From Synaphobranchus kaupii (lineage: Eukaryota; Chordata; Actinopteri; Anguilliformes; Synaphobranchidae), in the NCBI GenBank assembly GCA_029718625.1, contig CM056389.1:23841381-23905380 (forward strand): 64,000 nt of DNA, written 5' to 3'. Shown piece by piece: positions 1,819 through 64,000 of the stretch. The notes beneath the pieces were generated by a model that did no database searches, was not told the DNA's origin, and worked only from the letters and a program-made list of their open reading frames with translations. Numbering within the stretch: the first letter of the stretch is position 1; each line of letters opens with the position of its first letter. A program made the position numbers and the translations under genes.

Positions 1819-2519
1819 TGTCCATTGTGGACTATAACCTACATTGCCTAAGATAGATGGATAGCTATACATATCTAATAAAGCAGTATTTACATATAGC
1901 TAGCATAGACAAGATGCATGCAAACTCATTAGCTAACATTAGCTATATCATAATGTCCCAGTGAACATTTTTGTGTGAAACGCCACCTCGCATCTAGGTG
2001 AAAAACCGGCTAAATTTGGTTGAAAAGTTAATTTAAAATTTTTTTTTACCAGCTAGGATGTAGCCTATATCCGGGTAAAACCTGGACTAAATTGACACGT
2101 TTATTTCAAATTCTGACGTGGTGTTCGTCAATTCGATGAGGCGTTGAATTGTGAACACGGCGTAAACGTCTGGATTCCGGTTTTTGGGGTAACTGGGCTT
2201 ACATGAATCTTGAAACACCACCGCATAGAGTAACCTAAATCTATGGAGATAATGCATTACTACATATTGATAAATGTGTTTATGAATTAATTACTTGTCT
2301 AACCACAAAAGATTAGTCACTTGACATGATTGAGACTGATTCTGTCTCTGACTCCACTATTCACACTCAGATGAAGTAACGTTATATACACAAAATGCAG
2401 ATGAAACGAGTCAATCTGGCAACCAGTTGACGGGCTTGTGCTTCGAACAGCAGCAGTTGTGTTGTTATGAAATGCAATCTCCTTAAGAGACACTAGAGGG
2501 GGTGAAATGCTGTATCTAC
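1819..2519. other. Intergenic, nothing recognised
   Basis: AT-rich sequence with GCTAGC and AACGTTAG words common in this genome. I see no open frame, RNA gene or repeat boundary here. Confidence 0.5.
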
Positions 2520-2523
2520 AGCC

Positions 2524-3374
2524 TTTAAAGTGTAAGCACCAGATAATTAAAAATGCTGGAAAATCAAAAAATGTGAAAGAAAAATTACTGGTATAAAATT
2601 ACGTAGTCAGAAAGTATATTAATGTGATATAAACATTGGATATCGGTGTTTAAGAAGTGTTTCCAGTACCTCTTTCGCCCCGCCTCCAACATTTTTCGTA
2701 TTTCATAAAAGAAAGCTGACGTCATACTTGGTACTATCAACGTTCTTCAGCTGCTTCCCAATGCAACATGCAAACTTAACAAACAGAAATCTAGAAGGAA
2801 AAAAAAAACTACACTGCACCCTGAAGGCATACTGTCGAAACATGTTGGTGACTTAAAAATAAAAACTTTCTAGTTGCATGGAGAGAAGTGTGCAATTTTC
2901 TTTATTAGACTACGCACAGGCCAGTGATATGATGCAGCTATCCTGTAGAGACTTCCCCGTCTTGCGTACATGTGCAGCAGTGTTTACATCGGAAACAACA
3001 GCAACCGAAAGCATCACGTCTAAATACTAACTAACCCTACCAATTGCACAGAGACAGTTTTCACAGCTAGCTAACGTTAGACTAACGTCGTTGTCTGTTG
3101 GGAGGATTTTCTGCATCCTGGTGTGGTGCTTCATCAGGTTCAAAGCAAAACGGCTAAATAAACATATCTTTTTCCATCTTTTTCCCTCCTCAAAATATTC
3201 AAATTCCTCTTCATCCAAAGAACTGTCGGATTTGTGAGTGTCTGCCATTATGATTTGTGAGTGTCTGTATACCGATAGGCTCTAACCAGCTCACCCCCCC
3301 CCCCCCAAGTTAGACACCCAGTCCCAGCCAAGTTCTGCATAAGTGCATACCGGGACAAATCTACCACCGATATA
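2524..3374. repeat. Dispersed repeat, copy 1 (left end plus core)
   Basis: Bases 3031-3374 are about 90% identical by eye to 7161-7471, including the start of a 73-codon minus-strand frame beginning MADTHKSDSSLDEEE. The left end at 2524-2547 (TTTAAAGTGTAAGCACCAGA) reappears inverted at 7774-7798. The simplest reading is one transposon family: copy 1 keeps the left terminus and core, copy 2 the core and right terminus. The short acidic peptide matches no family I know. A run of C at 3294-3306 lies inside the core. Confidence 0.5.
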
Positions 3375-3679
3375 TTAATTCAATTTCTACTATTTGTAAA
3401 CGGTCGGTCGTCAGCGCTTACTGAATCTTTCCCAGATTGCTTTTTAAGTACCCAAAAGTGTGTTTCAGAAAAGAGTTTTAGGGTGTTTAAAAATTGTTTT
3501 TCTCTGCCTCTGCTCTAACACATAGGTTACATGCACAGAGTAGGCCTGCAGGTGCTCTTTTTTTGTCAATAACATTGTGTCTACACAGAAAAATGTTCAG
3601 TGTTAATTCAGCAGCAATAGAGCATATTTTACCCTTCTTGGACATGCACATTCTGGTAGAGCCATTCAGTGTTATACTG
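3375..3679. other. Gap with no recognised gene
   Basis: No coding potential recognised. The right part (about 3530-3720) contains pieces that recur inverted in the unit D sequence near 37400-37640, such as AGAAGAGTCTTGTTCTGTTC, so it merges into OR unit A. Confidence 0.4.
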
Positions 3680-4477
3680 TGATACTACCAGGGCCCAGTT
3701 CTGACAGTACTGCTCAAGAAGAGTCTTGTTCTGTTCTAAGACATTTCAAGAGAGGGCCATTCAGTAATGGTAAGTAATAAGTGATGCTTTTGTTTCTTCA
3801 GTAGGCAATGGAGTAGTATGGATCATTGTGAAGCTGGTTTGATTATTTGTTTTTTAAAAGAAAGGGCAGAAAAATGCATGGTGTAACAGTTTTAATAAAG
3901 CAATTGAGTAACATTATACTAGATTTCATCAGAGGTATGTGTTTTTGTTGTATTTTATAAAATAAAGCATACAGTAGAGTCAAACAAATGCAAACTTCAG
4001 TGTTAAAAGTCACTGGTCAACCAAACAGGGTATGGACCCATTTTCAAGCTCTTTATTATACAATACATGGATTGTCTTTTTTGTGATCACTGATTGTGAA
4101 TTAAATGAAATCACACTTCCCATTGACAAAAACAGAACAGACACTTCTCTTTCTATAACTCCATATTGGGTACATCTAAAAGTTGAGCTAGTTGTGTCAG
4201 TTCTTCTGGCATATAAAAATACATATAATTTTCTGAGATCCAGCTTGTGGTTTGATTATCTGTTATGTATTTCTACTTGTATTCATAGCCTCAACATAAG
4301 AGTGTGCTAAAAAAATTGGTGCATCTTAATTTCAAAGATTTATCAAACATTTCAGAGTTCAGTGCCACACCATTCCCAAATTTTTTATATCTCTGAGATC
4401 TGAGGTTCTGTACATATTATGTCTTTAGGTGTAGCCACTAAACTGCACCAGAGTTAGCTCAGAGGCTACTTTTCTGA
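3680..4477 (-). repeat. OR unit A, region downstream of the receptor
   Basis: On the minus strand this follows the OR stop codon. It matches unit B 14248-15120 and unit D 36258-36870, with indels; shared words include the complement of CCTACTTTTAGATG and of CATTACTGAATGGCCCTC. It marks a segmental duplication larger than the OR coding exon. No coding capacity is evident; open frames here are not conserved between copies. Confidence 0.7.
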
Positions 4478-5408
4478 TTACTGCAGCTGGGTTACTTTTG
4501 AATGAAGAATCTGCACAATTTTGGTCTTTAGTTCCTTGGTCTGCAGGGCGTATATGATGGGGTTCATGATGGCGGGAATGGTGTGAAAGAACATGGCCGC
4601 CACTCTACGATACCTTGAGGATCTGGACACGATCTGAAATTACGATGAAGAAGCCAGACCAGAGCATGACCATGTAGAGTAGCAGGTGGGTGGAGCAGGT
4701 CTGCACGGCCTTTCTGTTCAACTCCTTGTTCTTTCGGGAGACACAGCTGGCCAGGATCCTGAAATACGTGAAGGCCACGCTGCCGATAGACAAGCCCAAA
4801 ATGACCACGCTGTAGGTCAGTCCATAGATGTTGTTGATAGTCACATCCTGGCAGGAGAGTTTGTACAGGGACGGGTTGTTGCAGGCTTGTGCAATGACAG
4901 AACGACAGCGCGTTAGCCGTACGGTAAGGCCCAACAGGATGGTCACCAGCATTATCGATGTGCTCCAGGCAGATACAGTCAGCTTAGCCACCATGGTGGG
5001 GGTCATGATGGAGGTGTACCTGAGAGGGTGGCATATGGCCACGTACCTGTCGAAAGCCATGATCATCATCACCGTGTGGCAGGACGTGGCATATGTGTGG
5101 GTGAAGAAGGCTTGGGAGACGCAGCCGGGGTAGGTGATGGACTTGACAGTGGAGACCACATCCACCATCAGCCGGGGGATGGACAACGTGTTCCCCAGGA
5201 CGTCGTTGAAGGACAGGCTGAAGAACAGCAGGTACATTGGCTGCTGCAGGCTCCTGTCCATCATAATAAGCAGCATGACCCCTATGTTGGTGATCAGGAT
5301 GATCAGGTAGGTGACCAATAGCAGGGCAAACACTGGGTAAATGAAACGATGGGGGACGTTGGTGCCCTCGATCAGCAGGATGGGACTGTTGTAGGTCAGG
5401 TTATTCAT
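4478..5408 (-). pseudogene. Teleost type-1 odorant receptor, frameshifted in TM7 (copy A)
   Basis: This is a seven-helix G-protein coupled receptor of the olfactory family, expected in the cilia of olfactory neurons. From ATG at 5408 it has an N-glycosylation sequon at N3 (NLT), TM1 with N41, PMYLLFFSLSFND at 57-69, the TM3 end MAFDRYVAICHPLRY (DRY at 120-122), C96 for the TM3-loop disulfide, and the TM6 entry RKAVQTCSTHLL (232-243). Compared with copy E, two bases are missing near 4608. The frame runs off after QIL and stops at 4605, before the seventh helix. The rest (MNPIIYALQTKEL) continues in the shifted frame to TAA at 4478-4480. The 931-bp length equals an intact 933 minus 2. Upstream is an acceptor at 5437-5438. 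Confidence 0.9.
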
Positions 5409-5438
5409 ACCGGTTTTCCTGGGAAATTCTGTCAGACT
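5409..5438 (-). promoter_or_regulatory. Splice acceptor and 5' UTR of OR copy A
   Basis: On the minus strand a pyrimidine tract TTTTCTCTTTCCCAG ends at 5437, followed by 28 bases of leader and then ATG. The same acceptor precedes copies B (13298-13299) and E (51979-51980), and remains in unit C (21266-21267) where the OR is gone. Conservation across copies supports a spliced leader. Confidence 0.65.
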
Positions 5439-6224
5439 GGGAAAGAGAAAAATGTAAGTATAAATATAAAGATATTTCAGTTATTACTGCTTTAGAATAC
5501 ATCATTTCATTCCCATATTTTAGAATACATTATGTAATGTCATCTAGCATTAAAATCTATGTATGCATCCTACTATATTTTAAATACTTCTGCCTTTGCT
5601 CTGACAATGACAGTGGAAAGCTACAAAATAATCTTTTTATTAAATGATGATGAAAATCGCCCATTATTAAATGGGGTAAAGCAACCCAGATTTAAAATAA
5701 TGTATATAAGTGAAATAAAATGAATTCTGGAAAAAACATGGATGGAGTATTTTAAAAATTCATACAAATAAACAAAATACATATTCGCCATAAAACACTG
5801 CAATATGTTCTGGCAAATCCATTGAGTCTAGCACATTGTGCATACTGTGTGCAATTAGCTAGGCTTAGCCTTTCACATTTTCTGCATTGTTTAAGTTCAG
5901 AAAGTAATTGGGTGATGCCCATTTATTAAACCTTCCAAAGTGAACACGATGGCCTGCTTCAAAAGTACATACGAGGAATTTTCCATCTCTGCCATCAGCT
6001 GCTGAAACCAGATCCTGAAAACTGGGAGAAATTCACGTGTGTGATCAGAGAAATCCCATTATGCAATAACATAACATCCTTAGTTATCAGGACTTCTAGA
6101 ATGGTCTGCATTGTTACCACTGAGTAACACACAGTATAGTCCAGTAGCGGCTCTCGACTCCGAACAAAGTAACTGAAACATATTCTTTACCTGTATGCTG
6201 AATGGTGTAAAGGCGAGGTCATAC

Positions 6225-6420
6225 CTGTCTCAGGTTTAAGGCTGGCAGTCCTATGTTCCTAGAGAGCTTTCAGGCTTTATCTTACCCTCCCCTCTCTGTC
6301 CTGTCACTCATTTTGGAGGCAGGAGAGGACCGCCCCCAGACTCAGTGGTGATGTAATGCGCTGAAAGACGGGTGGCAGATGCTGCTGCTGTTGACATGTT
6401 ACTGCAGTGTTACATGCAGC
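6225..6420 (-). other. Putative noncoding leader exon of OR copy A
   Basis: On the minus strand the sequence CCTTAAACCTGAGACAG|GTATGACC gives a strong splice donor (exon end at 6225). It is conserved at 19658 and 36234 (plus) and 52751 (minus). OR genes commonly have short noncoding upstream exons, which fits. The exon's 5' end is not determinable; the right boundary is a guess that includes the conserved GC-rich block with TGAGTGACAG and CGCCCCCAGACTC. Confidence 0.5.
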
Positions 6421-7147
6421 CTAGGGAAATGGGCCCACAGGTGCAGCCTCCCTCCAAGATATATTATTTTAATAGTGTAGCATTTCTGTTCTTTTGTAAA
6501 AATATTATTTTAATATGAAGCACATACTGTCCTGGGTCCAATCAGCATTTGTCATGGATGTTCAATTTTTTTTTTTTTAATCTTGACATTTTGACATTTT
6601 TTCTTCCCTTCCCAAACACAGTACAGTACTGCTGCTTTTGACAAGTTGTTCTGCAGTGTTGTTTGCAGCGTAGGGAAAGACGCTCACAGGTGCAGCCTCT
6701 CTCTGAGATATATTATTACTGTAATACTGTAGCACTGTTCTTTTATGTAAATATTATTTTAATATAAAACACATAATGGCCTGGGTCCAATCAACATTTG
6801 TCATGAATGTTCACTTTTTTTCTTCAAAACACAGTACAGTGATTATTTCCGGAACCCTCAGAAATTTGTTTTGCATTACTGCTCATTCTAACAGGGTAAA
6901 ACAACATTATTCCCTGCAAAGATAATGTCCAATAACCTGAACTATCCCTCAATGTAAAAGAGTGAAATAAATATATTTTGTAATGTATTTTATACAGTTC
7001 AGAAACTGAATACATACACAGGTTTAGAATCCTTAGATTTACTCTGAAACTTATTCTGTAGCAGTATATTTCAAGAAATATTTTCTATTTAATTGATCCT
7101 GTCAACATCTTTCCTGGTGTCATACAAGACAGTGCACAACTAAGATT
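6410..7147. repeat. OR-unit upstream block (copy of 17409-18113)
   Basis: TTACATGCAGCCTAGGGAAA through GTGCACAACTAAGAT is repeated in the same orientation at 17409-18113. Its left part also recurs in unit E (52930-53173) and, inverted, in units C and D (19395-19500 and 35940-36060). Two internal sub-repeats, each with CCTAGGGAAA or CGTAGGGAAA followed by GGTGCAGCC, lie about 250 bp apart (6420 and 6670). Confidence 0.7.
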
Positions 7148-17408: not shown

Positions 17409-18113
17409 TATGTTTTACATGCAGCCTAGGGAAACAGGCCCACAGGTGCAGCCACCCTCCAAGATATATTATTTGAATATTGTAGCATTTCTGTTCTTTT
17501 GTAAAAATATTATTTTAATATGAAGCACATACTGGCCTGGGTCCAATCAACATTTGTTATAGATGTTAATCTTTTTTTACAATTTTCTTCCCTTCCCAAA
17601 CACAGTACAGTACTGCTGCTTTAGACAAGTTGTTCTGCAGTGTTGTATGCAGCCTAGGGAAAGACGATCACAGATGCAGCCTCTCTCTGAGATATTTTAT
17701 GACTGTAATATTGTAGCACTGTTATTTTATGTAAATATTATTTTAATATAAAACACATACTGGCCTGGGTCCAATCAGCATTTGTCATGAATGTTCATTT
17801 TTATTCTTCAAAACACAGTACAGTGATTATTTCTAGTAATTTCATAAATTTGTAAAAAACAGGGTAAAAAAACATTATTCACTGCAAAGATAATGTCCAA
17901 TAACCTGAACTACCCCTCAATGTAAAAGGATGAAATAAATATATTTTGTAATGTATTTTATGCAGTTCAGAAACTGAATACATACACAGGTTTAGAATCC
18001 TTAGATTTATTTTGAAACGTATTTTGTAGCAGTATATTTCAAGAAATATTCTACATTCAATTGATCCTGTCAACATCTTTCCTGGTGTCATACAAGACAT
18101 TGCACAACTAAGA
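17409..18113. repeat. OR-unit upstream block, second copy
   Basis: Same order and orientation as 6410-7147, from TTTACATGCAGCCTAGGGAA to GCACAACTAAGAT, with scattered substitutions and a small deletion near 17850. It is not attached to an OR here, so it is an isolated duplicate of the unit margin. Confidence 0.7.
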
Positions 18114-19116
18114 TAAAGGATATTTAAATGTCAGGTATTTTTCATGTAGTCATGGTTCATGAATGAATGTAAGAATGTTTTTTTTTATTTTATAATTTTT
18201 TATTAAACGGCCCTTTCCTGGCTTTTTTCGTATTTTATTTGGAACATAGATCCGGTAGGTAATTCTTGCGCCAGAAACAGCGTTAATGCACTGATGCATC
18301 AGAAACCACTCTGGTCCAAATTTCCATGGAAGCAAGCGTTCCTGGTCGTGTATATCTATGGTAAACAAACCGACCTGCCGACATTTTGCTAGTCTTTTCT
18401 GGTAGCTTGCTAACAACATTGAAGAAAATAGTACTTTTATAAATAATTTTATTTACACAAAAAGAAATGCGTACGAGGACTGGTTATTGTTTGTATTGAC
18501 AGAATCCGCTTCGTTCCCGTTCGTGTACGTTGTAGAAGTGTCCGTTTTAGCTGCCCTATAGAAGTGCATTATCACGTCAGGGTAGCACAGAGCAACTAAC
18601 GAACATCTTTCGCCACCATGTGGACTCATATCATGACTAGGTAACTACACAACCGAAAGTTCTACCAAAGCTCAGTTGTGCCTTAAGTACACTTTTTCTG
18701 AACTAAATCCCAGGTAGTGTACTTAAAATGCACTTTCACTTTACTTTCCAAGAAGTAAACTTAGATCACGGTTTAAAATACTTAAAGGGGATTTCCACTG
18801 ACAAACAACATTAACCCTATTTAACAGATGAAGGCACAACTCTTTTTGACTTGCCAAAACAATCTTTGAACAGAAATATTGACAGTGAAAGGTGTACATT
18901 TGGGAGAGGTATATGTCAAAATGACAAATTTCTTGACTCATTCCTCATTTTTGAAAAACTACAGTGGGCGGGTAAGATGAATTTGGAGATACATCTCATG
19001 CTATGCGAAGGAGGTGTTTACCAAACTCACAGAGAGAGGTGTTACAACTGTAAACAGTATTAACTTGCTAGCTAGCTCAAAGAGTTCTTAGCTAAGTTCC
19101 CAATTATTCCAGTACA
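18114..19116. other. Gap with no recognised gene
   Basis: A minus-strand 89-codon frame (18419-18150) has no known motif. GTGTACTTAAAATGCACTTT-like words repeat around 18680-18740. I see nothing else. Confidence 0.4.
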
Positions 19117-38025: not shown

Positions 38026-38069
38026 GATTCTTATGAGGGGCCGTTTAGGCCATAATTCATGTTGGACCT

Positions 38070-38530
38070 CTCACATACATATATTCTCTCTCTCACATAC
38101 ATATATTCTCTCTCTCACATACATATATTCTCACTCTCACATACATATACTCTCTCTCGCATACATATATTCTCTCTCTCACATACATATATTCTCACTC
38201 TCACATACATATATTCTCACTCACATACATATATTCTCACTCTCACATACATATATTCTCACTCTCACATACATATATTTTCACTCTCACATACATATAT
38301 TTTCACTCTCACATACATATATTCTCACTCTCACATACATATATTCTCACTCTCACATACATATATTCTCACTCTCACATACATATATTCTCACTCTCAC
38401 ATACATACATTCTCACTCTCATATACATATATTCTCACTCTCACATACATATATTCTCACTCTCACATACATACATTCTCACTCTCATATACATATATTC
38501 TCACTCTCACATACATATATTCTCATAAGA
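38070..38530 (+). repeat. Minisatellite array, left arm
   Basis: About 28 units of CTCACATACATATATT with variants (CTCTCACATACATATATT, CTCACTCACATACATAT). The 16-18-bp unit leaves long frames open (HIHIFSLS-type peptide), which are not genes. Confidence 0.9.
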
Positions 38531-38966
38531 GAATGTATGTATGTAAGAGTGATAATATATGTATGTGAGAGTAGAATGTATGTATGTGAGAGAAAGTATA
38601 TATATATATGGAAGGCACTTACATGAAACGGAAGTCACTTACATGAAACGGAAGGCACTTACATGAAACGGAAGGAAGTTAGTTTATGGAATTGTGATTG
38701 GCTCAGAAGCTGACTGGTACCATAGATATACAAACATAGATACCTCAGTTGCCCTATTCAAATCTTCACGGCCGCCAAATTAGGGCGGTCAAGATCTGTG
38801 TAAAAACAAACGGTACTGTATACAGGCACGACTTCACACCAGCGTTGCGTTGTGGGTATTATCGGCCTTTTTGCAGACACGCAAACTATAAACATTAACG
38901 GTAACGTTAGCTGTTATGTTAAGGTGACACCTTATGTTACGTTAAGTTAAGGTGTAACCACCTTAA

Positions 38967-39380
38967 TTGTGTTGGACTCATGCACCTGATGCAAATGACC
39001 CCTGGTTTTGTCACACATGCAAACAAGAGTGGAACAGAACTGTAACCAACGGTGAAGCCTTAAAGACTGACCACATAATTATGTTCTATGTTGTGCCTAT
39101 TGAAGCACTTAATTGTTCAAGTTTTTGGGCGTTTTCAGCACTTGGTTCTATTTTTACTTATTATGTACCTTGTGCTTTCAACTTATCCCACAGGGATTTA
39201 TGTGTGCAATCGTTTTTCTTAAATTACTTGAATCGAATATATTACTGGAATGTAACACTGCCACTTGTGGTACTGCCTACTACCTGTTGCACTGTGAACT
39301 TCATTGTAGGCTACTACTACCCCAAACAAATTATATTATCCATTTTGTACATTTCATGCAAGTCATTTCTTTTTTGCTAA
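38967..39380 (+). pseudogene. Transposon-internal ORF with PHD-like cysteine end
   Basis: A 137-codon frame opens MCWTHAPDANDPWFCHTCKQ. The words DPWFCHTC resemble the last zinc-binding pair of a PHD finger (W-F/Y-C-x2-C). The earlier half of such a finger is not in the sequence just upstream, so this could be a 3' terminal exon with the acceptor before GTGTTGGACTC. After CKQEWN the translation looks like chance hydrophobic sequence. AATAAA follows at 39381. Function unknown; it may be the tail of the element's own protein. Confidence 0.25.
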
Positions 39381-40239
39381 ATAAAGACATTCAGAATTGT
39401 ATTCATTGTACATCGTTTATTGCATTTCACACAACATATTACACTCTAGGTACACTTGCGGTTTTCCATTAGAATCCACTATGCTCATTGTCATATTATG
39501 TAGGCTATATGCCGTGAGCACAACGGATGTGGAAATGTTTTAATATTTTTTTACGTCTTACAGCCTATACCCATGCCATAGGACGTCTCTTTGTTAGCTC
39601 GGCGATCAGACTTCCACCCACTTTGCTTCCAAGCTGGAAAGCTGTAAAATCGCTCTCCATTTGCGATTAAAACTGCATCCAAGATTTGCAGCTATAATAC
39701 GGTTATAATAATCAGAGCTACCAAGATAATAAAGAACCAACCTCTACTGCTTTCTAGCAGCTTTAAACAATAAAATCACCATTAGCTCTGACAACATTTT
39801 GACAACGTATGCATAATTGTTAAAGGGCGTTTTACAAATACTAGCTGTTCTGAGAAATTTGGAATTCAGATTAACATTTATCACGTTTATAAAAAGCCAA
39901 ATTTCACGAAAATTAGTTGAGAATTAAGCGAGTTACAGTCGATTTTATCGGAGGAAATCTTAATCTGTCAATACGCTACGATACCGTTTATTTACGTGGA
40001 TCCTGACCGCCCGACGGTGGCCAGGCTATTTGTAGACAATGAACTCATTCCAGAATGTGGATACTTTCACACAAAAAAAGCCATGCATGATTGTTTCTTT
40101 TTACAGAACGTAGCCTACATAGCTACATTTTCAATATTAGTAGCCTATCGCTGCAACGTTACACAGCGGCTGGTGCGGCATAGATCTACGTTTTTATATC
40201 CATGGCTGGTAGGCTGTTGTCATAGTAGCTACTTTGTCC

Positions 40240-41112
40240 GTGCACCATGGAGGGGGAAGACCAGTAACGTTATTAGCCTCCAACCGGCAATCGGAGTAAT
40301 GCATAAATATTACCGTCACCTGAAACAGTCGGTGCTTCTTGAGAGGCCAGCATCAGCCCTGTAGCCTAGCCTACTCAGCGCCTTCTCACAACACAGCTGA
40401 CAGCGAGATGAGAGCACTATTTACACCGTAATGTTCACTCCTGAGTGTAGGCTAATGTCCACAGACACACATTGACTCTCGGCAGAGGAAAACGTAACAA
40501 ATAACGTTAGCTTATTACTAAGCTCATTCACTACGCAAACAGACCAGTGAACCGTTATAATGTGGCAATCATGTACTAGCTAATGCTAAAAAATAATCAC
40601 ATCACTTGCTAACGTTAGCTTGTTTAATGCAAGTCTAAGTAGCCAAGGCCGTTGCTATACGAAGCATTGCTTTTGTTGGTTAGTTAGCTAACGTGAGCAA
40701 GTGGTGTGATTATCTTTTAGCATTACTACATGGTTACGAAATGATAACGGTTCATTTGTCTGTTTGCACAGTGATTAAACTTAGTAGCAAGCTAACGTTA
40801 GTTGTTACCTTTTCCTCGACCGAGAGTCCCAGTTGCCAAAGTGTTGTGGAGTGTTATATCGTGCAGGACGGCAGACTGTCTCCGAGCAAGTCCAAGCTGA
40901 CCTGAGGATTCTTAAGGTAGCTACACTGGAGTTAATGTTACTGGGACTAAATCGCGCTCTCATCTCGCTGTGAGAAGGCGCAGAATGATACAGCGCTGGC
41001 CTGGCCTCAAGAGATGAGGACAACTGCCTGTTTTAGACGGCGATAATATATTATGCATTACTCCGATTTCCTGTTGTAATACATGTATCTGGTCTTCCCC
41101 CTCCACGATGCG
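40240..41112. repeat. Inner inverted repeat of the foldback element
   Basis: Arms of about 160-175 bp: GGAGGGGGAAGACCAG (40250) to CAGCGAGATGAGAGC (40415) and the inverse 40955-41112 (CGCTCTCATCTCGCTGTG to CTGGTCTTCCCCCTCC). The arms are diverged, unlike the outer arms. The spacer (40420-40950) is rich in AACGTTAGC words and has no gene. Confidence 0.7.
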
Positions 41113-41389
41113 TGGGAACTGGACAAGAGCCTGTATGGCATATTATAGTAACAGTGCAGACGTAACTTGAATGGGCGAATAAGGAATCCAGTAGTTGTTT
41201 ATATCTATGGTACCAGCCAGCTTCTGAGCCAATCACGATTCCATAAACTAACTTCCTTCCGTTTCATGTAAGTGCCTTCCATTTCATGTAAGTGACTTCC
41301 GTTTCATGTAAGTGCCTTCCATATATATATATATATATACTTTCTCTCACATACATACATTCTACTCTCACATACATATATTATCACTC

Positions 41390-41935
41390 TTACATACATA
41401 CATTCTCTTATGAGAATATATGTATGTGAGAGTGAGAATATATGTATATGAGAGTGAGAATGTATGTATGTGAGAGTGAGAATATATGTATATGAGAGTG
41501 AGAATGTATGTATGTATGTGAGAGTGAGAATATATGTATGTGAGAGTGAGAATATATGTATATGAGAGTGAGAATGTATGTATGTGAGAGTGAGAATATA
41601 TGTATGTGAGAGTGAGAATATATGTATGTGAGAGTGAGAATGTATGTATGTGAGTGAGAATATATGTATGTGAGAGTGAGAATATATGTATGTGAGAGTG
41701 AGAATATATGTATGTGAGAGTGAGAATATATGTATGTGAGAGTGAGAATATATGTATGTGAGTGAGAATATATGTATGTGAGTGAGAATATATGTATGTG
41801 AGAGTGAGAATATATGTATGTGAGAGAGAGAATATATGTATGCGAGAGAGAGTATATGTATGTGAGAGTGAGAATACATGTATGTGAGAGTGAGAATATA
41901 TGTATGTGAGAGAGAGAATATATGTATGTGAGAGG
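41390..41935 (-). repeat. Minisatellite array, right arm
   Basis: Inverse of the left array (GAGAATATATGTATGTGAGA units). The unit order differs from the left arm (extra CATACATACATACA unit near 41510, different numbers of short units), so the arrays have evolved separately since the arms were made. Confidence 0.9.
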
Positions 41936-41976
41936 TCCAACATGAATTATGGCCTAAACGGCCCCTCATAGATTCT

Positions 41977-52751: not shown

Positions 52752-53173
52752 TGTCTCAGGTTTAAGGCTGGCAGTCCTCTCTTCCTTGTGGGCTTTCAGG
52801 CTTTATCCTGCCCTCCCCTCTCTGTCCTGTCACTCATTTTGGAGGCAGGAGAGGACCGCCCCCAGACTCAGTGGTGATGTAATGCACTGAAAGACGGGTG
52901 GCAGATGCTGCAGCTTTTGACATGGTACTGCAGTGTTACATGCAGCCTAGGGAAACGGGCCCACAGGTGCAGCCTCCCTCTGACATATATTATTCTAATA
53001 TTGTAGCATTTCTGTTCTTTTGTAAAAATATTATTTTAATATGAAGCACATACTGGCCTGGGTCCAATCAGCATTTGTCATGGATGTTCAACATTTTTTT
53101 CCCTTTCCAAACAGTACAGTACTGCTGCTTTTGACAAGTTGTTCTGCAGTGTTGTATGCAGCCTAGGGAAAGA
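52752..53173 (-). other. OR unit E upstream block with leader exon
   Basis: It holds the GC-rich leader region (GGCAGGAGAGGACCGCCCCC) and the CCTAGGGAAA sub-repeats. Homology to unit A continues to CAGCCTAGGGAAAGA at 53173 and stops where TATGAGGGGCC begins. Unit A continues CGCTCACAGG at that point. Confidence 0.7.
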
Positions 53174-53795
53174 TATGAGGGGCCATTTGAATTCATAATT
53201 GCCTCGCATATACACATACAATGACTCTCATATTTACTAGTGAAGCTCTCACGCACACTGAAAAAGCTTGTACATAACATCTAAATGCTTGCACACACAC
53301 CCTAAATCTTCTCATAAACACAAAGGGCTTGCACATATACGTACAATGGCTCTCACATTCACTAGTGAAGCTCTCACACGCACTGAAAAAGCATTCACTT
53401 AATATCTACATGCTTGCACACACAGCGTAACTCTTCTCATATACACACAAAGAGCTTGCACATACATTTACAGTGGCACTCACATATTAACTAGTGAAGC
53501 TCTCACTGACACATGAAATCTCTTACACACACTATTTTCATGCTCTCTCACGCTCAAATAATCCTCTTGCATTAACTCCGCTCACAAACATACAAAGCAT
53601 TCGCACATTCACTATTTGTTCTCACAAATTAATATAAACAACACACATACACAGAAAATATTTAGAATTCATATGTGTGTGTGTGTGAGAGGGTTTTCAG
53701 TCCTACGTGTGAGACATCTCAGTTGAAACGGAAAGTGGCTAAAACCTAGCGTTCTGATTGGCTTAGCCAAGCACACTGCTTCACTCACCTACTTA

Positions 53796-55481
53796 ATACT
53801 TCTGGCTGGCGATGCCCGCTGGCGACAGTTTTCTGTATTTAACTCTATGGGCTTTGGCCCCCTAGTGGTGGGACGTATCCGTCCCAATTTTTTATAGTGG
53901 TCATATAGTGTTCTCGGAAATTCTAAATTAAAACGTTAATAAAACACAGAACGTTTGAGGCAAAATTGTTAAAAACAGTCAAAGCCTGCGAACACATTCG
54001 TTTATATGCTTATCAGCTCTCAGGTTACACTACAGGGCCATAAAGCAGCAGGGTGCTAATAGCCCAACCCACTGTTTACAGCCTTCACCTCGCCGCAGCC
54101 ACAGGCAATAAAATGCATATCACAAAAACTCTTGGTACAGTTTCTACACGCTAAAAAATCAAGATCCGATTTAGTATGTTACTGAAAAGTTGTATAAATG
54201 AATCCCGTGCTCACTTCACTATGCATACAACCGATGTTCTTCCGGTTTTGTTTCAATATATTTTATTTTCTACAAGATCTCTTGATAAACAAGGTTTATC
54301 AACAAAATTTGATACCTGGTTATGCAGTTATAACTGTTTTCTGAAGAATCTTTAACCCTTTTTCGTAATCCATTTATCCATTTTCCAGCAAAATCTCAAT
54401 TTCCATGGTGCGTACCCATCGCATTTGCGTTTGTACTACGTTACTACCGTTGCTTAAAAACATTACTAGACTGCTTCAGGGATGATCTAACGTAAACCAC
54501 GTAGATTATCTTCTACGGGGTTTCCTGCCCTTTCAAACGAAGTTAAATATTCTAGCGAATGGGAACGGCGCTAGATCCATGCGTAACTACAGCCCATAGG
54601 GCAATCGTGCTGTGCACACTCGGCTGTAGACAGGCTCAGATTATGCCTGTGGCCATTTTTACTGAGCTTATCCTGCAAGGGATGGACTGGATTGCTGTAC
54701 AAGTACGTTTTTAGCCTATCCAGATGATATTTAGCCATGTGTAGCGCTTTTGTTAGCTGTATGTACGTCATAGGCCAGTTTTTCTCTTTACGCCTACGTG
54801 GTTTGCTGTATGGTGTAATTGCGCTGGTCATATGTCTTTGCTGCTTCAACGATTATGATTATTTGATACATTTATACGCGAACGTGGCAAGCAACGGTGG
54901 AAAGAAGAGCGCTTATTTCATGGTTGCTCAGGTTTTGGAGGTGCTCCACCGCAGTGTCCCGGAGGTGAAGAAGTCTGTCCTCAGGCATAGCAATGACTCT
55001 GTGGCATGGACCCGTGCCTGGACATGTAAGTGTTTTTAAAAATATATAATACAAATTATTATTATTATTATTGTTATTATCATCATCATCATCATAATCA
55101 TCAACAGTATGGAGCGCTATTATCTAGAGTATTTTTAGTTTGGTGATAAATGGATTCTCGCAGAAGTTCGCTAGTTAGCTTCTATGTTGTCACAGGCTGG
55201 AAAGGAGCTCCTGCTGGGGGTTTGTTTTGTAGCGTTCATTCACAGTTTTTTTTGTATAGCAACCAACACAAGGGCTAGTTGTTGAATTCACGCATGAAAC
55301 TACATCCATTCTCAGTACTTTATTTTTAGTTCAGTCAAGACATTACAGTATTATAATAATGTAATTTAGTTTGTGCAAGCTGACAAACTAATTCATAAAT
55401 CCTAGTTAGCTATGATTGCTAATTATGTTGGAGCTAATATCAGACGTACTTTTTTTTTGATTTTTTAATGTATATACGAGT
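53796..55481. other. Left interior of the giant foldback element
   Basis: No complete gene. A plus-strand stretch about 54860-55024 reads GGKKSAYFMVAQVLEVLHRS..VAWTRAWT and ends at CAT|GTAAGTG (donor at 55026), so it could be an exon. It resembles no domain I know. An ATT/ATC microsatellite lies at 55055-55100. Confidence 0.35.
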
Positions 55482-55489
55482 GTGTGTAT

Positions 55490-57358
55490 CAGAGGAGGCT
55501 GGTCCATAGAGGCAGAGGAGGTTGCTCCTCCTCTATTTTTGAGAGACAAGAGGGAGATCAAAATATAAAAAATTTAATTGGTTAAAATAAACCATTACCA
55601 AATCTCAGTATCATTTCTAAAATAATTATTCTCTCTTTTGGGAAAAAAATCCATTATTGAAATTCTGATTAAAATGCTTCAACAGTGACACCTGCAGGGC
55701 AAGAGGGGAAAGGGCAGTCTGTGTGAAGTGGTGGTGAGGGTGGGGGGTCGGGGGGGGGGGGGGGGGGGGGTGCAGAGGAGGACGGGCTCCTGCTGTCCTC
55801 CTTAGGGCGGGATCTCATATCAATTTAATGTACTTCATTTTTTTTCATGCTAATCTGTTATTGGCCAAAACACGTAAAATGATGCGGAGGACGTCCTCCC
55901 TAACCAATCAACAACCAGAATACAGTATTGACATTGCGTTGGTCCAATGATATTTTCCAAATTTCATCTTCAATTGACCCTTCGCTAAGCCCCGCTAAGC
56001 CACTTAGTAACTGTTGCTATGTCCGCCAAGCTTTCTGTGTCCGTCAAAGAAAACATAGCATTTTCAACCATGAAAGTCTGCTACTGCCCTTTTGGAAAAT
56101 GGTAACTTTAGGAACTTTTGGAAAAATTGATCTTCAATTTCATATTTGTAGTGTAGTTTAAATGCTAGCTGAAATGATTAAAAGTAGATTTTGTGATGCT
56201 AGGTAGCATTATTTCCATCACAGCATGCTGTCTCTTTTGCTAGCTAGCTAGTACCACAGTGACAGTGGAAAACTAGCATAACAGACATAAGCAGAGGGAC
56301 TAGCTGGCTTGGCTAGGCATCAAATAACAAACCATATCTCATTCATGAACACGTTATTATCATCGGTTTGTTTACGAGATGGAGTCTGGTAACATTGATG
56401 TTATTCAGCGAACGTTAACGTTATAAAAATAGATCTGCAAATACTAACATATGGTCTTTTATATTAGTAAGCTAACCAAATGTCCAAATAAATTTCAGCA
56501 CAGTAGCTAAGTGGTAACTAGCCAGCTAACGTTAGATGCGCTCGCTTTGGCTTTAAAATGCCTAGCTAGTTACACAGTATTGCACAGTATTGATTTCAGG
56601 CTACGGAAGTGGACATTCCTTTGTATTAAATAAAAATGTTGTCAATTCACATTTGAGGTGAGATTAAATGTACTGTTTCAAATTAAATGGCTCAAGCTAG
56701 AGTCTGATATTATTTCACAAATCTATTAAATGGTCCAATTCTTTGTCTATTTAGTGGCCATTACGTTATTGCATTATTCATGTTTTTAGCTTACCAAATT
56801 TAGTTGGAGATAGTCGGCATGTAACTGCACAGCTCCAGTGCTCCACTATCAGCAGCTGTAGTTGCAGACAGTCACAGCAGCAACAAGTGTTTGTAACATT
56901 ACTCTGGACTTGGCTTCCCACTAACAAATTGCGGGAATAACATGTTTGTTAGAGAACAGTGATTTTCTTTCCTTCTTTTAAAGTTTAATTTAATGTGTCC
57001 TTTTTTAGGTAGCTAGAGCTAACGTAAACAGTAGCTATAACAGCTGACGTCCGTTACGGATAGCCGGGATATGATTAACGTTGCTTTGTTAGTGATTAGA
57101 TGTGTCTTTCCCTCTCGTTCACCTGGCCCCTTTTTTATATTCATCCTTTGTATTGTAATATGATATATGATAATATGATATTTGTTAGGTTATTATTAGG
57201 TTGCTAGTTGGATTATTGCTACATTTGAACATAAGAACATAATATAACTTGAACATAAGAAAGTAGAGATAAGTAGCCAACTAGTGTAAAATGACATGAC
57301 GCCGTGGGTTGGTTTTCCTCCTGTCCTCCCCAATTTTTTGAGTCACCAGCCGCCACTG
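55490..57358. mobile_element. Non-autonomous hAT element, perfect 8-bp duplication
   Basis: The left end CAGAGGAGGCTGGTCC and right end, read inverted, CAGTGGCGGCTGGTGACTC are related termini. GTGTGTAT flanks both (55482-55489, 57359-57366). The right-end form (CAGTGGCGGCTGGTGACTC) is common in fish. The 1.87-kb interior has no transposase frame; it includes a G run at 55751-55770. Confidence 0.85.
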
Positions 57359-57366
57359 GTGTGTAT

Positions 57367-57401
57367 ATATATATATATATGTGTGTGTGTGTATATATAT
57401 A
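57367..57401 (+). repeat. (TA)n(GT)n microsatellite between elements
   Basis: The run TATATATATATA, GTGTGTGTGT, TATATATA supplies the TA target for the Tc1 element that follows. Confidence 0.85.
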
Positions 57402-59038
57402 CAGTCAAGCCGGAAAGTCTCCCCACCCCTTTCACCTTCTCCACGTTTTATTATGTTACAGACATATTCTACAATAGATTGAGTTCATTTTTTGTCTCAA
57501 GATTCTACACAAAATAGCCCATAATGACAAAGTGAAAACAGGTTTTTAGACAATTGTGCTAATTTATAAAAAATCTAAATGTAAAATATCATATGTACAC
57601 AAGTGTGCACACCCTTTGATATGACACCCAAAAGTGAGCTGAGGTGCATTTTGTTTCCACTGATACTGCTTGAGATGTTTCTACAACTTAATTGGAGTCC
57701 ACCTGTGATAAATTCAATTGATTGGACATGATTGGGGATTGCCAACACTTGCCTATATAAGGTCCCACAGTTGACAGTGCATGTCAGAGCAAACTCCAAG
57801 CCATGGGGTCAAAGGAATTATCTGCAGACTTCAGAAACAGGATTGTGTCAAGGCATAGATCTGGAGAAGGGTACAGAAAAATCTCTGCAGCTTTACAGGT
57901 CCCAAAGAGCACAGTGGCCACCATCATTCGTAAATGGAAGAAGTTTGGAACCACCAAGAATCTTCCTAGACCTGGCCGCCCGGCCAAACTGAGCAATCGG
58001 GGAAGACGGGCCTTGGCCAGGGAGGTGAGCAGGAACCCGAGGGTCACTCTGACAGAGCTCCAGCGTATCCTTGTGGAGATGGGAGAACCTTTCAGAAGAT
58101 CAACCATCCAGGCAGCACTCCACCAATCAGGCCTTTATGGTAGTGGCCAGATGGAAGCCCCTCCTTAGTAAAAGGCACATCACAGCCCGCTTGGAGTTTG
58201 CCAAAAGGCACCTAGAGGACTCTCAAACCATGAGAATCAAGATTCTCTGGTCTGATGAAACCAAAATGGAACATTTTGGCCTGAATACCAAGCGTCACGT
58301 CTGGAGGAAACCAGGCACCGCTCATCACCTGGCTAATACCATCCCTACAGTGAAGCATGGCGGTTGCAGCATCATGATGTGGGGATGTTTTTCAGCAGCG
58401 GAACGGGGCGACTAGTCCTGATAGAGGGAAAGATGAATGCAGCTAAGTACACCGAGATCCTTGAAGAAAACCTGCTCCAGAGCGCTCTGGACCTCAGACT
58501 GGGGCGAAGGTTTACCTTCCAACATGACAAAGACCCAAAGCACACAGCCAAGAGAACAAAGGAGTGGCTTCGGAGAAAGTCTGTGCATGTCCTCGAGTGG
58601 CCCAGCCAGAGCCCAGACCTGAATCCAATTGAACATCTGTGGAAAGAGCTGAAAATGGCTGTGTACCGACGCTCCCCATCCAACCTGACGGAGCTTGCAA
58701 GGATATGCCAAGAGGAATGGGCAAAAATGTCCAGAAACAAGTGTGCCAAGCTCGTAGCTTCTTTCCCAAGATGCCTTGAAGCTGTAATCGCTGCCAAAGG
58801 TGCAGCAACCAAGTATTAGGCTAAGGGTGTGTACAGATATGTAACCCCTAAATAACCTATTTTTGTCAGTAAAATAAAATTGCATATTTTCTAAAAACCT
58901 GTTTTCACTTCGTCATTATTGGCTATTGTGTGTAAATGTTTGAGGCAAAAAATGAACTCAATCTATTGTAGTATAAGTCTGTAACGTAATAAAACGTGGA
59001 GAAGGTGAAAGGGGTGGGGAGACTTTCCGGCTTGACTG
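57402..59038 (+). mobile_element. Complete Tc1-like transposon with about 100-bp TIRs
   Basis: CAGTCAAGCCGGAAAGTCTC at 57402 and its inverse ending at 59038 lie between TA targets (57400-57401, 59039-59040). The terminal repeats are about 95% identical over roughly 100 bp. The 1.64-kb length is normal for Tc1 elements. It holds a single transposase gene with two frameshifts. Confidence 0.92.
57803..58819 (+). pseudogene. Tc1-like DD34E transposase, two frameshifts
   Basis: ATG at 57803 (MGSKELSADFRNRIVSRHRS) opens the paired-type DNA-binding region: first helix-turn-helix GYRKISAALQVPKSTVATII, then the GRP(G)R-like linker PRPGRPAKLS and the second helix-turn-helix. The frame shifts near 58135 and again near 58405. 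Catalytic residues are present across the frames: ILWSDETK (first D), FQHDKDPKHT (second D) and SPDLNPIEHLW (E), with 34 residues between the last two. The C-terminus (AAKGAATKY) ends at 58819. Total length, about 339 codons, is normal. Only the two single-base lesions prevent reading, so loss of function looks recent. Confidence 0.92.
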
Positions 59039-59044
59039 TATATA

Positions 59045-60576
59045 CACTACTCACAAAAAGTTAGGGATATTTGGCTTTCGGGTGAAATTTATGGAAAATG
59101 TAAGTTCACGCTACAGTGATATTATACGTATCATGAAAGTAGGGCATTTAAGTAGAAGCATGCAATGGTGATTTCCTCATCTCAAACAATTTATTGAAAC
59201 AAAAGCCAACAACAGTGGTGGGTATACCACAACAAAAATGTCAATGTCTCAATAACTTGTCATGTGTCCTTGAGCATCAATTACAGCTTGACAACGACGT
59301 CTCATGCTGTTCACAAGTCGACTTATTGTCTGCTGAGGCATGGCATCCCACTCTTCTTGAAGGGCAGCCCTCAGGTCATTGAGGTTCTGGGGTACAGAGT
59401 TACGAGCCTCTACACGGTGAGTCAGCTGATCCCATAGGTTTTCTATGGGATTCAGGTCTGGAGAAAGTGCAGGCCACTCCATTTGAGGTACCCCAGTCTC
59501 CAGCAGCCTTTCCCTAATGATGCGACCTCGATGAGCTGGAGCATTGTCGTCCATGAAGATGAAATTAGGCCTGTGTTGTTCATGCAGGGGCACAATGACT
59601 GGATTAATGATGTTATTCAGGTAGTATGGGCTTGTCACTGTACCATTCACAAAAGTGTAGGGCAGTTCTGTATTGACTAGACACACCTGCCCACACTGTA
59701 ACACCGCCACCACCAAAGGGTCGTCTGGTGACAACAGTGGCTGATGCATAGCGCTCTCCTTGACGTCTCCAACATCGTTGGCGGCCATCATTTCTGCTCA
59801 ACGTGAATCGACTTTCATCAGAGAACAGCACTGAGGCCCACTGGTCCCTCGTCCAGCGTAAATGCTCCCTGGCCCATGCAAGACGATGACGCCTGTGCCT
59901 GGTGGTGTGGTCAGGTACCCTTGCAGGTCGTCTAGCACGCAGACCACGCTGATGTAAACGGTTTCGAATGGTCTGACGTGACACTTGGGTGCCTCTCACC
60001 TCCCTTAAATGTGCCTGGAGTTGAGTGGCATTCATCATCCGGTTCCGCAGGGCACTGTTCACAATGAAGCGGTCATCAGTGTGGGATGTGGCCAAAGGAC
60101 GTCCACTTCTATGCTTTTCTGTGACTCTTCCAGTCTCTCTGTAACTCTGTTGCAACCTGCTGATGACACTCTGTGACACTCTAAGCTCAGTGGCCACTTC
60201 CCTCTGAGAACATCCTGTTTGAAGCCTCGCAATGGCGAGGTACTGTTGATCAATTGTTAGGTGTCGTCTTGGTCTCATGATGTCAAAATGTGAACAGCAT
60301 GATGAAGAGGACTGTTTAAATACCAATTCTAATTGAACCAGGAAATTTATTAGTCGATTCATGGATCAAACACCTGTTGTGAATTTTGCCGTTCAGCTCC
60401 TTGTTAGAGAACAGCAAGTTGTGCAAAAAGTACTGAAACATTGAATAGTTGGACATGTGCATTCAAAAGTTTAGAGAAGGTCAAATTAATTTCACCTGTA
60501 AAGGTTATAGTGCATTTTAGGTTCATCCTGAAATTTCACCCGAAAGCCGAATATCCCTAACTTTTTGTGAGTAGTG
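59045..60576 (-). mobile_element. Complete Tc1-like transposon of a second family
   Basis: CACTACTCACAAAAAGTTAG at 59045 and its inverse ending at 60576 lie between TA targets (59043-59044, 60577-60578). Only six bases (TATATA, counting targets) separate it from the previous element. It encodes one transposase on the minus strand. Confidence 0.92.
59249..60278 (-). pseudogene. Tc1-like DD34E transposase, one frameshift
   Basis: ATG at 60278 ([20 protein letters not shown]) is followed by helix-turn-helix [20 protein letters not shown] and the basic linker RSGRPLATS. The catalytic domain has VLFSDESRF (first D), FMDDNAPAH (second D) and SPDLNPIENLW (E), spaced DD34E. One extra T in a TTTT run near 59650 shifts the frame between [15 protein letters not shown] and [10 protein letters not shown]. 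The tail ends AQGHMTSY at 59249. At about 343 codons it is full length and nearly intact. This type differs clearly from the neighbouring element's transposase, so the two arrived separately. Confidence 0.92.
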
Positions 60577-60974
60577 TATATGTGTGTGGCCCCGTTTTGG
60601 AAAAAAATACCAATGCATAAGGAAAGCTGTAGATATCTTTACCAAATTGTAAACACAAGTGGACAACATATTACTGAACTAGTATAAGCAATTCTGGCTT
60701 GCTCCAGTACTTTGAAGTTGAGATATTCAGTGATAAACTATAAAAACACAAGGCGTTTTGTACTTTTTTTTGTATTCTTAAGTGTATTTTGTATAAACTG
60801 TATGTGACCACTTTGACATACATTTATTCTGTTCCAAATTTCTGAATGGTACAAGCCTCTTCTTTCATTCAAACTTTCAACCATGGATGTGCAGTGAATA
60901 GTTTTTGAGATATTGACACTTAATTGACACTAGTAAAAACTAGATGAAAATTGGGCCAAATGTGCCAAAGTAAA
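60577..60974. other. Interior of the giant foldback element
   Basis: AT-rich sequence without a recognised gene, between the Tc1 elements and the inner inverted repeat. Confidence 0.4.
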
Positions 60975-61327
60975 TACGCCATAATACATTGAGACAACGT
61001 AAAAAACTGCTAAAATAATACCGCATTTTTTTTCTCCAAAAAAGCAACGTAGGCTATTTTATGTGCCACAAAAACGAGCGTTTTACTAACAATCAAATGA
61101 GCTCCGCCAGTTGTTTTTCATAGCAAACAAGGTTGCAATTGCTTAATCCAATCAATGATGATCAAGGTCAGACCAGAAGTCAGCGAAACTGGGCCACATT
61201 CAATGTGAAAACGGTGTGCACCGTTTTTCTACGGTTACCGGGTTTAACAACATGTTTCCTCGAAACGGTGTGCAACGGGCTTTGAGGTACATTTTCTCTC
61301 ATTTGGTGGGAGTGTCAGAGGTGTTAC

Positions 61328-61389
61328 CCAATCAGCAGTGACATGTAGGCCTATATAAACCCCGCCATATTAAAAAGGCAGTGCGCACA
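61328..61389 (+). promoter_or_regulatory. Promoter with CCAAT and TATA box
   Basis: CCAATCA at 61328 and TATATAAA at 61352-61359 lie 38-62 bases ahead of ATG 61390. Upstream are two palindromic words, AAACGGTGTGCACCGTTT (61209-61226) and GAAACGGTGTGCAACG (61263-61278), possible binding sites for the element's own protein. Confidence 0.55.
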
Positions 61390-61470
61390 ATGGATCCAAC
61401 TAAAGTCCTTTACAATTGCGTCTACTGCAGCTTGGTGTATGCAACAATTGAAGACATTAGAAGACATGTT
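61390..61470 (+). pseudogene. First exon of a C2H2 zinc-finger-like transposon gene
   Basis: ATG at 61390 gives MDPTKVLYNCVYCSLVYATI then EDIRRHV. C10-x2-C13-x12-H26 is the first part of a C2H2 finger; the last histidine would fall in the next exon. The translation after HV is low-complexity and enters a Tc1 foldback at 61532. GTTTGT or GTATCT near 61470 may be the donor. The promoter context and clean start suggest a real exon. No second exon is visible to the right before the opposing gene begins, so the gene is truncated. Function unknown; such fingers often bind transposon ends. Confidence 0.4.
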
Positions 61471-61531
61471 TGTATCTTTTGCTATTGTATTTACCATTGT
61501 GGTAAATACAACTTTTCTACTCCTCTAAATA

Positions 61532-62672
61532 TACAGTATCAGTCAAACGTTTGGACACACCTACTCATAGAAGGTTTCTTTCCGTTATTTTTACTGTTTT
61601 CCACATTTTGGAATAGTAAAGACATCAAAACTATGAGATAACACAAATTAAATTATGCAAAAACCAAAAAAGTGTTAAACAAATAAAAAAAAGTCTTATA
61701 TTTTAGATTCTTCAAAGTAGCCACTCTTTGCCTTGATAACGGGTTTGCACATTCTTGCCATTCTCTCAAACAACTTTTGTGGTAAACAGGTATTCCACAG
61801 GTAAACAGGTGATGCCAACATGATTCTGTATAAAAGGATATCAAAAGACTCCTGATCTTATTTCCAGGTACTCTTAGAAGCAATACTATACCCTCTCTGC
61901 ATTTGAATGGATCTCTATGGGAATTGGGGGGTGGGACTAGATTAAGCTGTAAATTACACGGGAATAGTATGGAACCCATGGTTTGCTAAATGGCTGTAAG
62001 TCAACAAGGGTCTGAGGTACCAAACGAGCCTCAAACCATCACTCTGCTGCCAGATATGCAGTAGATATGGATGGATCGCTTGAAGGGTTGTTTCTCCTGA
62101 CAAATTTTCCTATTGAACTCTATGGAAAAATAAGTCAGGAGAAGAAACCCTTCAAGTTTTCCATCCATATCTACTGTATTTCTGGCAGCAGAGTGATGGT
62201 TTAAGGCTTGTTTGATACGTCAGACCCTTGATGACTTACAGCCATTTAGCCAACCATGTGATCCACACTGTTCCAGTGTAATTTAAAGATAAATCTAGTC
62301 CCACCCCCCAATTCCCATAGAGATCCATTCAAATGCAGAGAGGTTATAGTATTGCTTCTAAGAGTACCTGGAAATAAGATATCAGGAGTCTTTTGATATC
62401 CTTTTATACGGAATCATGATGGCATCACCTGTTTACCTGTGGAATACCTGTTTACCACAGAAGTTGTTTGAGAGAATGGCAAGAATGTACAAAGCCGTTA
62501 TCAAGGCAAAGGGTGGCTACTTTGAAGAATCTAAAATATAACACTTTTTTGGTTTTTGCATAATTTAATTTGTGTTATCTCATAGTTTTGATGTCTTTAC
62601 TATTCCACAATGTGGAAAATAGAAAAAAACCTTCTATGAGTAGGTGTGTCCAAACTTTTGACTGGTACTGTA
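61532..62672. mobile_element. 1.14-kb near-perfect foldback made of two Tc1-type ends
   Basis: The left half (61532 to about 62100) and right half (about 62110-62672) are inverted copies over about 565 bp each. Outer ends TACAGTATCAGTCAAACGTT and inverse (..CCAAACTTTTGACTGGTACTGTA) are the terminal repeat of a fish Tc1-like family. Each arm retains the last codons of a transposase (right arm plus strand: ERMARMYKAVIKAKGGYFEE, stop near 62541; left arm in reverse). It looks like two 3' halves joined head to head. It lies in what would be an intron of the zinc-finger gene. Confidence 0.9.
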
Positions 62673-62791
62673 TAATGCTAAATATTACAATAGCATATCA
62701 CAACAACAGTGATCAGCAATAATGATAGACCTAATACTCATAATAAAATAATGAGCTCCTATAGATTGATAAGAAGTGGATTATCCTTCAC

Positions 62792-63031
62792 CTGAAATGT
62801 TTGCCTTGTCATCCTGAAATGCGAGTCAAATGTTGGATCACTATACTTAGGAACCACAGTTTCCACATACCCCTTCACTCGATTGGGATGTTCTCTGCTA
62901 TTCTGGACTGCAAGGGCAGTGACTGTAACATCGAGCGTATTTTGGAGTATTAAAAACGTATTTAAACCGATTTCATCAGGCTCTGAAAATTCTTCAAAAA
63001 GAACGCAAAGAATGGCCTTCTCAGCTGCCAT
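62792..63031 (-). pseudogene. First exon of a HARBI1-like nuclease gene
   Basis: ATG at 63031 opens MAAEKAILCVLFEEFSEPDE. Later GYVETVVPKYSDPTFDSHFR and MTRQTFQ follow. The pattern V-x-x-Y-x-x-F/D-S-H-F-R-M-x-R-x-T-F is the N-terminal helix region just before the DDE domain of PIF/Harbinger nucleases and HARBI1. TTTCAG|GTGAAGG puts a splice donor at 62791. The DDE exons should follow at lower coordinates, but 62.67-61.53 kb is the Tc1 foldback and beyond it is the opposing zinc-finger exon, so the catalytic part is gone. Only this 80-codon exon is left. The family call is moderate: similar N-termini occur in relatives. Confidence 0.5.
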
Positions 63032-63348
63032 AGTTGCAACGCTTGCGTAACACTACAGGTTGTTCAACGCACCACCGTTTCCATTTAAATAAATGTTTTG
63101 CTACGTTTTGTCGGGGCTGAACGCAGCCCTAGTTAATGAAAGTAGTGGATCAGACGAGTGGAGCAAAACACCCACTTCCAGAACGTTTTAAAATGCAATA
63201 TAACAATCGATTAAGAATTATGAATATGCTATTATCAGTAGCTAAAATATCCTGATGCATAGATCGAAGCTATGCCACTGAAATGGAGCGATTGTAAAGG
63301 AGGTTGCAGTATTTTAGCTTGCATATGGTGGGCTATAATTCTCCAAGA

Positions 63349-63430
63349 GCAGTGGTTCCCAAACTCGGTCCTGGGATAGCCCTTGCATGCTGGTTTTCTT
63401 CCCAACCAAAATTGCGAGCTATATTGCAAT
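63349..63430 (+). repeat. Short dispersed repeat (GGTTCCCAAACTCGG type)
   Basis: Plus-strand copy of the repeat at 8620-8716, inserted next to the inner right arm. Noncoding. Confidence 0.55.
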
Positions 63431-63644
63431 TAGCCTGCAAAACACCTGGCGGAGCTCATTCTATTGTAAGCAAAACACTCGTTTTTGTGACACAAAAACG
63501 GCATTGCGTTTTTGGAAGGAAAACGCAGTTTTTATATGCTCAAAAACTGTGGAAAATACGGCATTTTTTATTATTTTAGCGCAGTTTTTTACGTTGTCTC
63601 AATTTATTACGCCGCCAGCAGGCAGCGCCAGCCAGAAGAATCAG

Positions 63645-64000
63645 GTAGTGGAGTGAAGCAGTGTGCTTGGCTAAGCCAATCAGAACGCTAGATTTTAGCC
63701 ACCTTCCGTTTCAACTGAAATACCTTCCGGTTTTCAACTGAGATGTCTCACACATACTACTGAAAACCCTCTCACATTCTCACAGTTCTCACACATTCAT
63801 ATAAACAACACACAAGCACACATATCAATTCTGAATATTTTCTGTGTATGTGTGTTGTTTATATGAATATGTGAGAACAAATAGTGAATGTGCGAATGCT
63901 TTGTATGTTTATGTGAGCGTAGTTAATGCAAGAGGATTTTTTGAACATGTGAGAGCATGAACATAGTGCGTGTAAGAGATTTCATGTGTCAGTGAGAGCT
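63645..64000. repeat. Right arm of the giant foldback element, cut by the window edge
   Basis: GAGTGAAGCAGTGTGCTTGG, CTAAGCCAATCAGAACGCTAG and ACACACATACACAG-like words, inverted, match 53790 back to 53498. A small extra inverted stretch at 63785-63870 (AACAACACACAAGCACACAT with ATGTGTGTTGTTTATATGAA) is not in the left arm, so the arms are not identical. Confidence 0.8.

Follow-up and report, generated by a model that had tools for sequence, protein, structure and literature searches.

At position 53174 of a 64,000-nucleotide stretch of Synaphobranchus kaupii DNA (contig CM056389.1, positions 23,841,381 to 23,905,380; hereafter the window), a repeated unit of an olfactory-receptor (OR) cluster is broken off, and an inverted-repeat structure begins that runs past the window edge. 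What interrupted the unit, and are the roughly 11 kb that it occupies its own? Reading the contig beyond the edge, we found that an insertion that duplicated the 6-bp sequence GAAAGA split a pre-existing unit of the cluster. Other transposons inserted into this element later and inflated it, and its 11-kb size is not intrinsic. The element is very probably a non-autonomous IS3EU/GingerRoot-like DNA transposon that would have been mobilised in trans by a transposase of the rva_4/IS3EU kind and would now be inert.

Boundaries, target site and arms

The window contains TATGAGGGGCC twice, at 38032 and at 53174, and a single reverse-complement copy at 41960-41970. The homology to two OR units, unit A (6075-6680) and a second unit (17412-17664), stops exactly at 53173, so that the TATGAGGGGCC start at 53174 marks the break in unit homology just where a preliminary description of the window had placed it. 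The right end was read in L009, which starts with the final 500 bases of the window (identity verified) and continues into the contig beyond its edge. It reads ...GGCCTAAACGGCCCCTCATA, where the element ends, and then GAAAGACGCTCACAGATGCAGCC, the flank. The terminus of the right arm, GGCCCCTCATA, falls at window-equivalent position 64179 and is directly followed by GAAAGA and then by the unit sequence CGCTCACAGATGCAGCC. The element spans 53174-64179 (11,006 bp) and is bordered by a 6-bp target-site duplication (TSD), the left copy of GAAAGA lying at 53168-53173 and the right copy at window-equivalent 64180-64185, beyond the window. From 64180 onward the flank is again homologous to OR units, at 6675-7146 (89% identity) and 17659-18175 (86%). 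Each of these units has only one GAAAGA at the place that corresponds to the insertion, and the sites at 6675 and 17659 thus both represent unfilled homologous sites.

From the window alone, it had been forecast that a right end near 64.32 kb would be followed by GAAAGA and CGCTCACAGGTGCAGCC. A terminus was indeed found past the edge, although 145 bp earlier than expected, and GAAAGA follows it. The unit sequence is also present, as GAAAGACGCTCACAGATGCAGCC, with a difference of one base: the flank has CAGATG, the form of the unit at 17659, where CAGGTG had been forecast. The shortfall of 145 bp fits a right arm with about one ~126-bp subrepeat fewer than the left, as seen in the offset between the two main pieces of the arm alignment.

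The left terminal inverted repeat (TIR; 53174-53842, plus strand) starts with the TATGAGGGGCC end and contains ~2.5 tandem ~125-bp subrepeats at 53206-53518, and the right TIR (minus strand) runs from 63561 to the window edge at 64000 and on to 64179 (L009 positions 501-679). Alignment of 53174-53843 with 63561-64179 gave two main pieces, of 77% and 81% identity, which cover most of the arm length. The best score was 481 bits; 100 shuffled versions of the right arm scored no higher than 24.7 bits. The mirrored arms are thus real, but their mirror inside the window reaches slightly further in (63613-64000) than the start at 63645 originally given.

The family and its probable superfamily

The other TATGAGGGGCC end in the window opens a 3,939-bp element at 38032-41970, the first family member, with the TSD GATTCT and TIRs made of 22-bp tandem units. 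Its proposed kinship with the 53174 element was supported: the two share the terminus TATGAGGGGCCGTTTAGGCCAWAATTCAT, which the 53174 copy shows complete at its right end, and both have a 6-bp TSD (GATTCT and GAAAGA). The two elements are of different subfamilies with one terminus, distinguished by their subterminal repeats (22 bp in the 38032 element, ~126 bp in the 53174 element). A search of the whole 1.5-Gb genome with a 29-nt end pattern, allowing at most three mismatches, identified 638 termini (314 forward and 324 reverse), whereas a control with the reversed pattern identified none. Thirteen fetched copies had both ends recognisable, copies that were cut off or one-ended being left out of the count. 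An exact 6-bp TSD was present in 12 of these, and the thirteenth, L028, matches at four of six positions. The left end is TATGA in all 13 and the right end ATA in 12, with CATG in L024. Copy BIG33_34 has GAATGT on both sides.

The superfamily label is based on these termini and TSDs rather than on a transposase that the family itself encodes. According to PMC10045372, TA..TA termini are found in every complete IS3EU family and the TSD is usually 6 bp long, and the 53174 family resembles IS3EU/GingerRoot in both respects. Fungal IS3EU elements with TET genes end in TAYGG..CCRTA according to PMC12730594, and a study of four teleost genomes tabulates IS3EU, with 17,838 copies in one column (PMC4746887). 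The family departs from IS3EU/GingerRoot in that no IS3EU transposase was seen in the 53174 copy or in the relatives examined, and in its arms, which contain tandem arrays of 22-bp or ~126-bp units.

The integrase-core domain rva_4 (PF24764), which we take to be the transposase domain of IS3EU/GingerRoot, had 153 matches in the same genome versus none in 14 control genomes. One locus of the same genome, L046 (C2), ties rva_4 to TA..TA ends. Its positions 1465-5464 form a 4,000-bp element with TACGGAGCCCC ends, the TIR TACGGAGCCCCAGACATGAC (20/20), the TSD CTTATT, an rva_4 match and a 350-codon open frame (4267-5316, minus strand), and it is possibly a young IS3EU-like element. Like the 53174 element, it has a TAYGRRG-type terminus (TACGGAGCCCC versus TATGAGGGGCC), a 6-bp TSD and, by eye, short subterminal repeats of ~20 bp inside the TIR. 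It differs from the 53174 element in its rva_4 transposase frame, its shorter arms and a TIR sequence that is otherwise unlike. The paired ends of L046 were seen once a longer stretch was taken; L036-L045, each comprising an rva_4 match and 1.5 kb on either side, showed no paired TAYGRGG ends.

Several observations weigh against the assignment to IS3EU. No transposase-coding copy with TATGAGGGGCC ends was found among the copies read, and for the 100 of the 638 termini that were listed (contigs C1-C3), no listed rva_4 match lay nearer than about 52 kb, as judged by eye. In three other rva_4 loci, searched for TA..TA pairs flanked by 6-bp TSDs, no convincing element came to light: L047 and L050 have no such pair, and L051 has a weak 13/20 match, to be read beside a rough control of five other loci in which no pairing reached 12/20. 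A perfect 34-bp inverted repeat encloses the transposase frame of L047; the bases checked there include neither a TA end nor a TSD.

When nine interior frames of the 53174 element were scanned with Pfam, only Tc1-type helix-turn-helix (HTH) domains, in two frames, exceeded the curated cut-offs; weak matches below them included zf-C2H2_4 (E 0.14; 61342-61638). A literature search for the 11-nt terminus returned nothing on topic, judging by title.

No rva_4 frame was found between TATGAGGGGCC ends, so that mobilisation in trans is inferred. The enzyme would be of the rva_4/IS3EU kind, a DDE transposase with an integrase fold, which would have cut and pasted the element and would bind the ends and the subterminal repeats, the ~126-bp or 22-bp arm units perhaps being its binding sites. 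It would excise and integrate the element at its TA ends, making cuts staggered by 6 bp, and the 53174 copy would have lost its mobility after the nested insertions.

The interior of the first element (38600-41330) holds a stretch that reads, by eye, like the tail of a PHD finger (HLDCVGL and DPWFCHTC, in two frames) followed by AATAAA; a gene that has since been lost may have ended here. The tail DPWFCHTC had no Pfam support, four frames of the element scanned with Pfam gave no match, and the loci searched for a PHD-type pattern contained none.

Nested insertions and alternative explanations

Nested insertions make up ~9.07 kb of the 11.0 kb, and removal of two spans leaves a core of ~1,938 bp. 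The preliminary description, which had called the element a much larger member, was misleading on this point, because the ~1.94-kb core falls short of the first element, which measures 3.94 kb. The first span, 53843-60976, is absent at a precise junction in all 14 other copies inspected, and the uninterrupted join ...TGTATTTRAYGMMG... is identical in 13 of them and slightly shorter in L012. The second span, 61193-63128, is absent in 10 of 11 other copies inspected, L010 differing there in another way. By comparison with other copies, the core resumes at 60977-61192 and again, as its right inner part, at 63129-63560 (both plus strand).

The first span is a dispersed TTAA-type insertion, presumably piggyBac-like by its features, with the ends CTCTATGGG (CCCTATGGG in L049) and AAATA (followed by GGG in L049). 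Its left 1.6 kb had 44 matches in the genome, the present copy included (40 of 1,623 candidates scored); the query started 7 bases inside the span, and the matches alone do not fix the left boundary, which is drawn from L049 and the unfilled copies. L049 contains the same sequence as TTAA/CCCTAT...ATAGGG/TTAA, with counterparts of both 53839-55477 and 60588-60976, and ends of this form are typical of piggyBac-like elements. The right-hand GGGTTAA is missing here when the insertion is set beside L049 and the unfilled sites. Within it lies a CAG...CTG element (55490-57358), which we assume from its features to be hAT-like and whose 8-bp duplication, GTGTGTAT, is weaker evidence because its flank is a GT/AT microsatellite. 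The same insertion contains a Tc1-like element (57400-59040, plus strand), with a transposase over several frames, a Sleeping Beauty-type HTH (HTH_SB, 1.2e-27) and a 96.5% relative in L052, and a Tc1/mariner-like element with TACACTACTCACAAAAAGTTAGGGATA ends (59043-60578, minus strand) and a transposase in two frames (HTH_Tnp_Tc3_2, 4.5e-19).

The second span is a GGGC..GCCC element with the ends GGCCACATTCA and TGAACGCAGCC and a 3-4-bp duplication, CTGG/CTAG. One relative, L024, carries the part 62672-63130 elsewhere in the element, which agrees with a repeat in its own right. A 97-codon frame within it (62762-63052, minus strand) has 181 relatives at the protein level (62-92% identity in the 120 that were listed) and no domain in a Pfam scan; it was rejected as the transposase of the 53174 element because it belongs to the nested insertion. 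The span also encloses a 1.1-kb palindromic, hairpin-like element (61532-62672; ends TACAGTATCAGTC.../...GACTGGTACTGTA) that is 87% identical to its reverse complement. Parts of this palindrome were also observed in L019 and L020. Copies of the first-element type are likewise interrupted, namely L033+L034 (10.9 kb between ends), L035 (7.8 kb) and L052 (a 13.9-kb copy, of which only the middle 5 kb was read); as copies broken by other sequence, they were rejected as coding copies.

These data bear directly on the idea that the 11 kb are the cargo of a giant transposon, Maverick/Polinton-like or of another type with a 6-bp TSD. Polintons do have a 6-bp TSD, long TIRs and large size, yet we regard this explanation as highly improbable, since both spans are missing at precise junctions from all or nearly all other copies inspected, the first is a separate repeat with TTAA ends, and the interior frames above the Pfam cut-offs are Tc1-type. 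None of the nine interior frames scanned matched a polymerase, capsid or protease, and the interior, as compared with that of a Polinton/Maverick, consists of nested transposons and the ~1.94-kb core. Still less credible is a chance inverted repeat or a segmental inversion within the OR cluster; a region so rich in duplicated units might invite it, but the exact TSD, the unfilled sites and the 638 dispersed termini refute it.

It also seems unlikely that the element is not IS3EU but a long-TIR transposon of the Foldback/Galileo type (P superfamily) or a MULE. TSDs of MULEs are usually 8-10 bp long, against 6 bp in 12 of the 13 two-ended copies, and the terminus fits TA..TA. Galileo of Drosophila, as described in PMC3573991, is similar to the 53174 element in its long TIRs with internal tandem repeats, unequal in number between the arms, but differs in having a 7-bp TSD and a P-type transposase.

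Variable arms and significance of the element

In ten two-ended copies of the ~126-bp subfamily, the forward/reverse unit counts were 4/2, 5/3, 16/7, 7/12, 5/6, 5/7, 7/12, 6/7, 7/7 and 6/7, and were thus unequal in nine; units were counted with a fuzzy 20-mer over the whole element, so that the arms are only approximated. In one relative (L017:3000-6492), the right arm contains over 20 ~127-bp units in tandem. We tentatively propose, as a possibility somewhat short of even, that the arms behave as minisatellites, their ~126-bp or 22-bp units expanding and contracting separately in each arm after insertion, and that non-autonomous elements of the IS3EU type may thereby spread mirrored arrays of variable number across a vertebrate genome. 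The arms of Galileo are likewise independent in repeat number, according to PMC3573991.

The 53174 element is an ordinary cut-and-paste DNA transposon of a known kind and involves no new mechanism. It provides a clean worked case in which a forecast made from sequence only was confirmed beyond the window, and it displays insertions nested in an orderly way within an olfactory-receptor cluster. It also brings to light, in one fish genome, a non-autonomous IS3EU-like family with long arms whose termini number in the hundreds. If the arms do behave as minisatellites, they would represent a second origin of such arms, independent of Galileo in flies.

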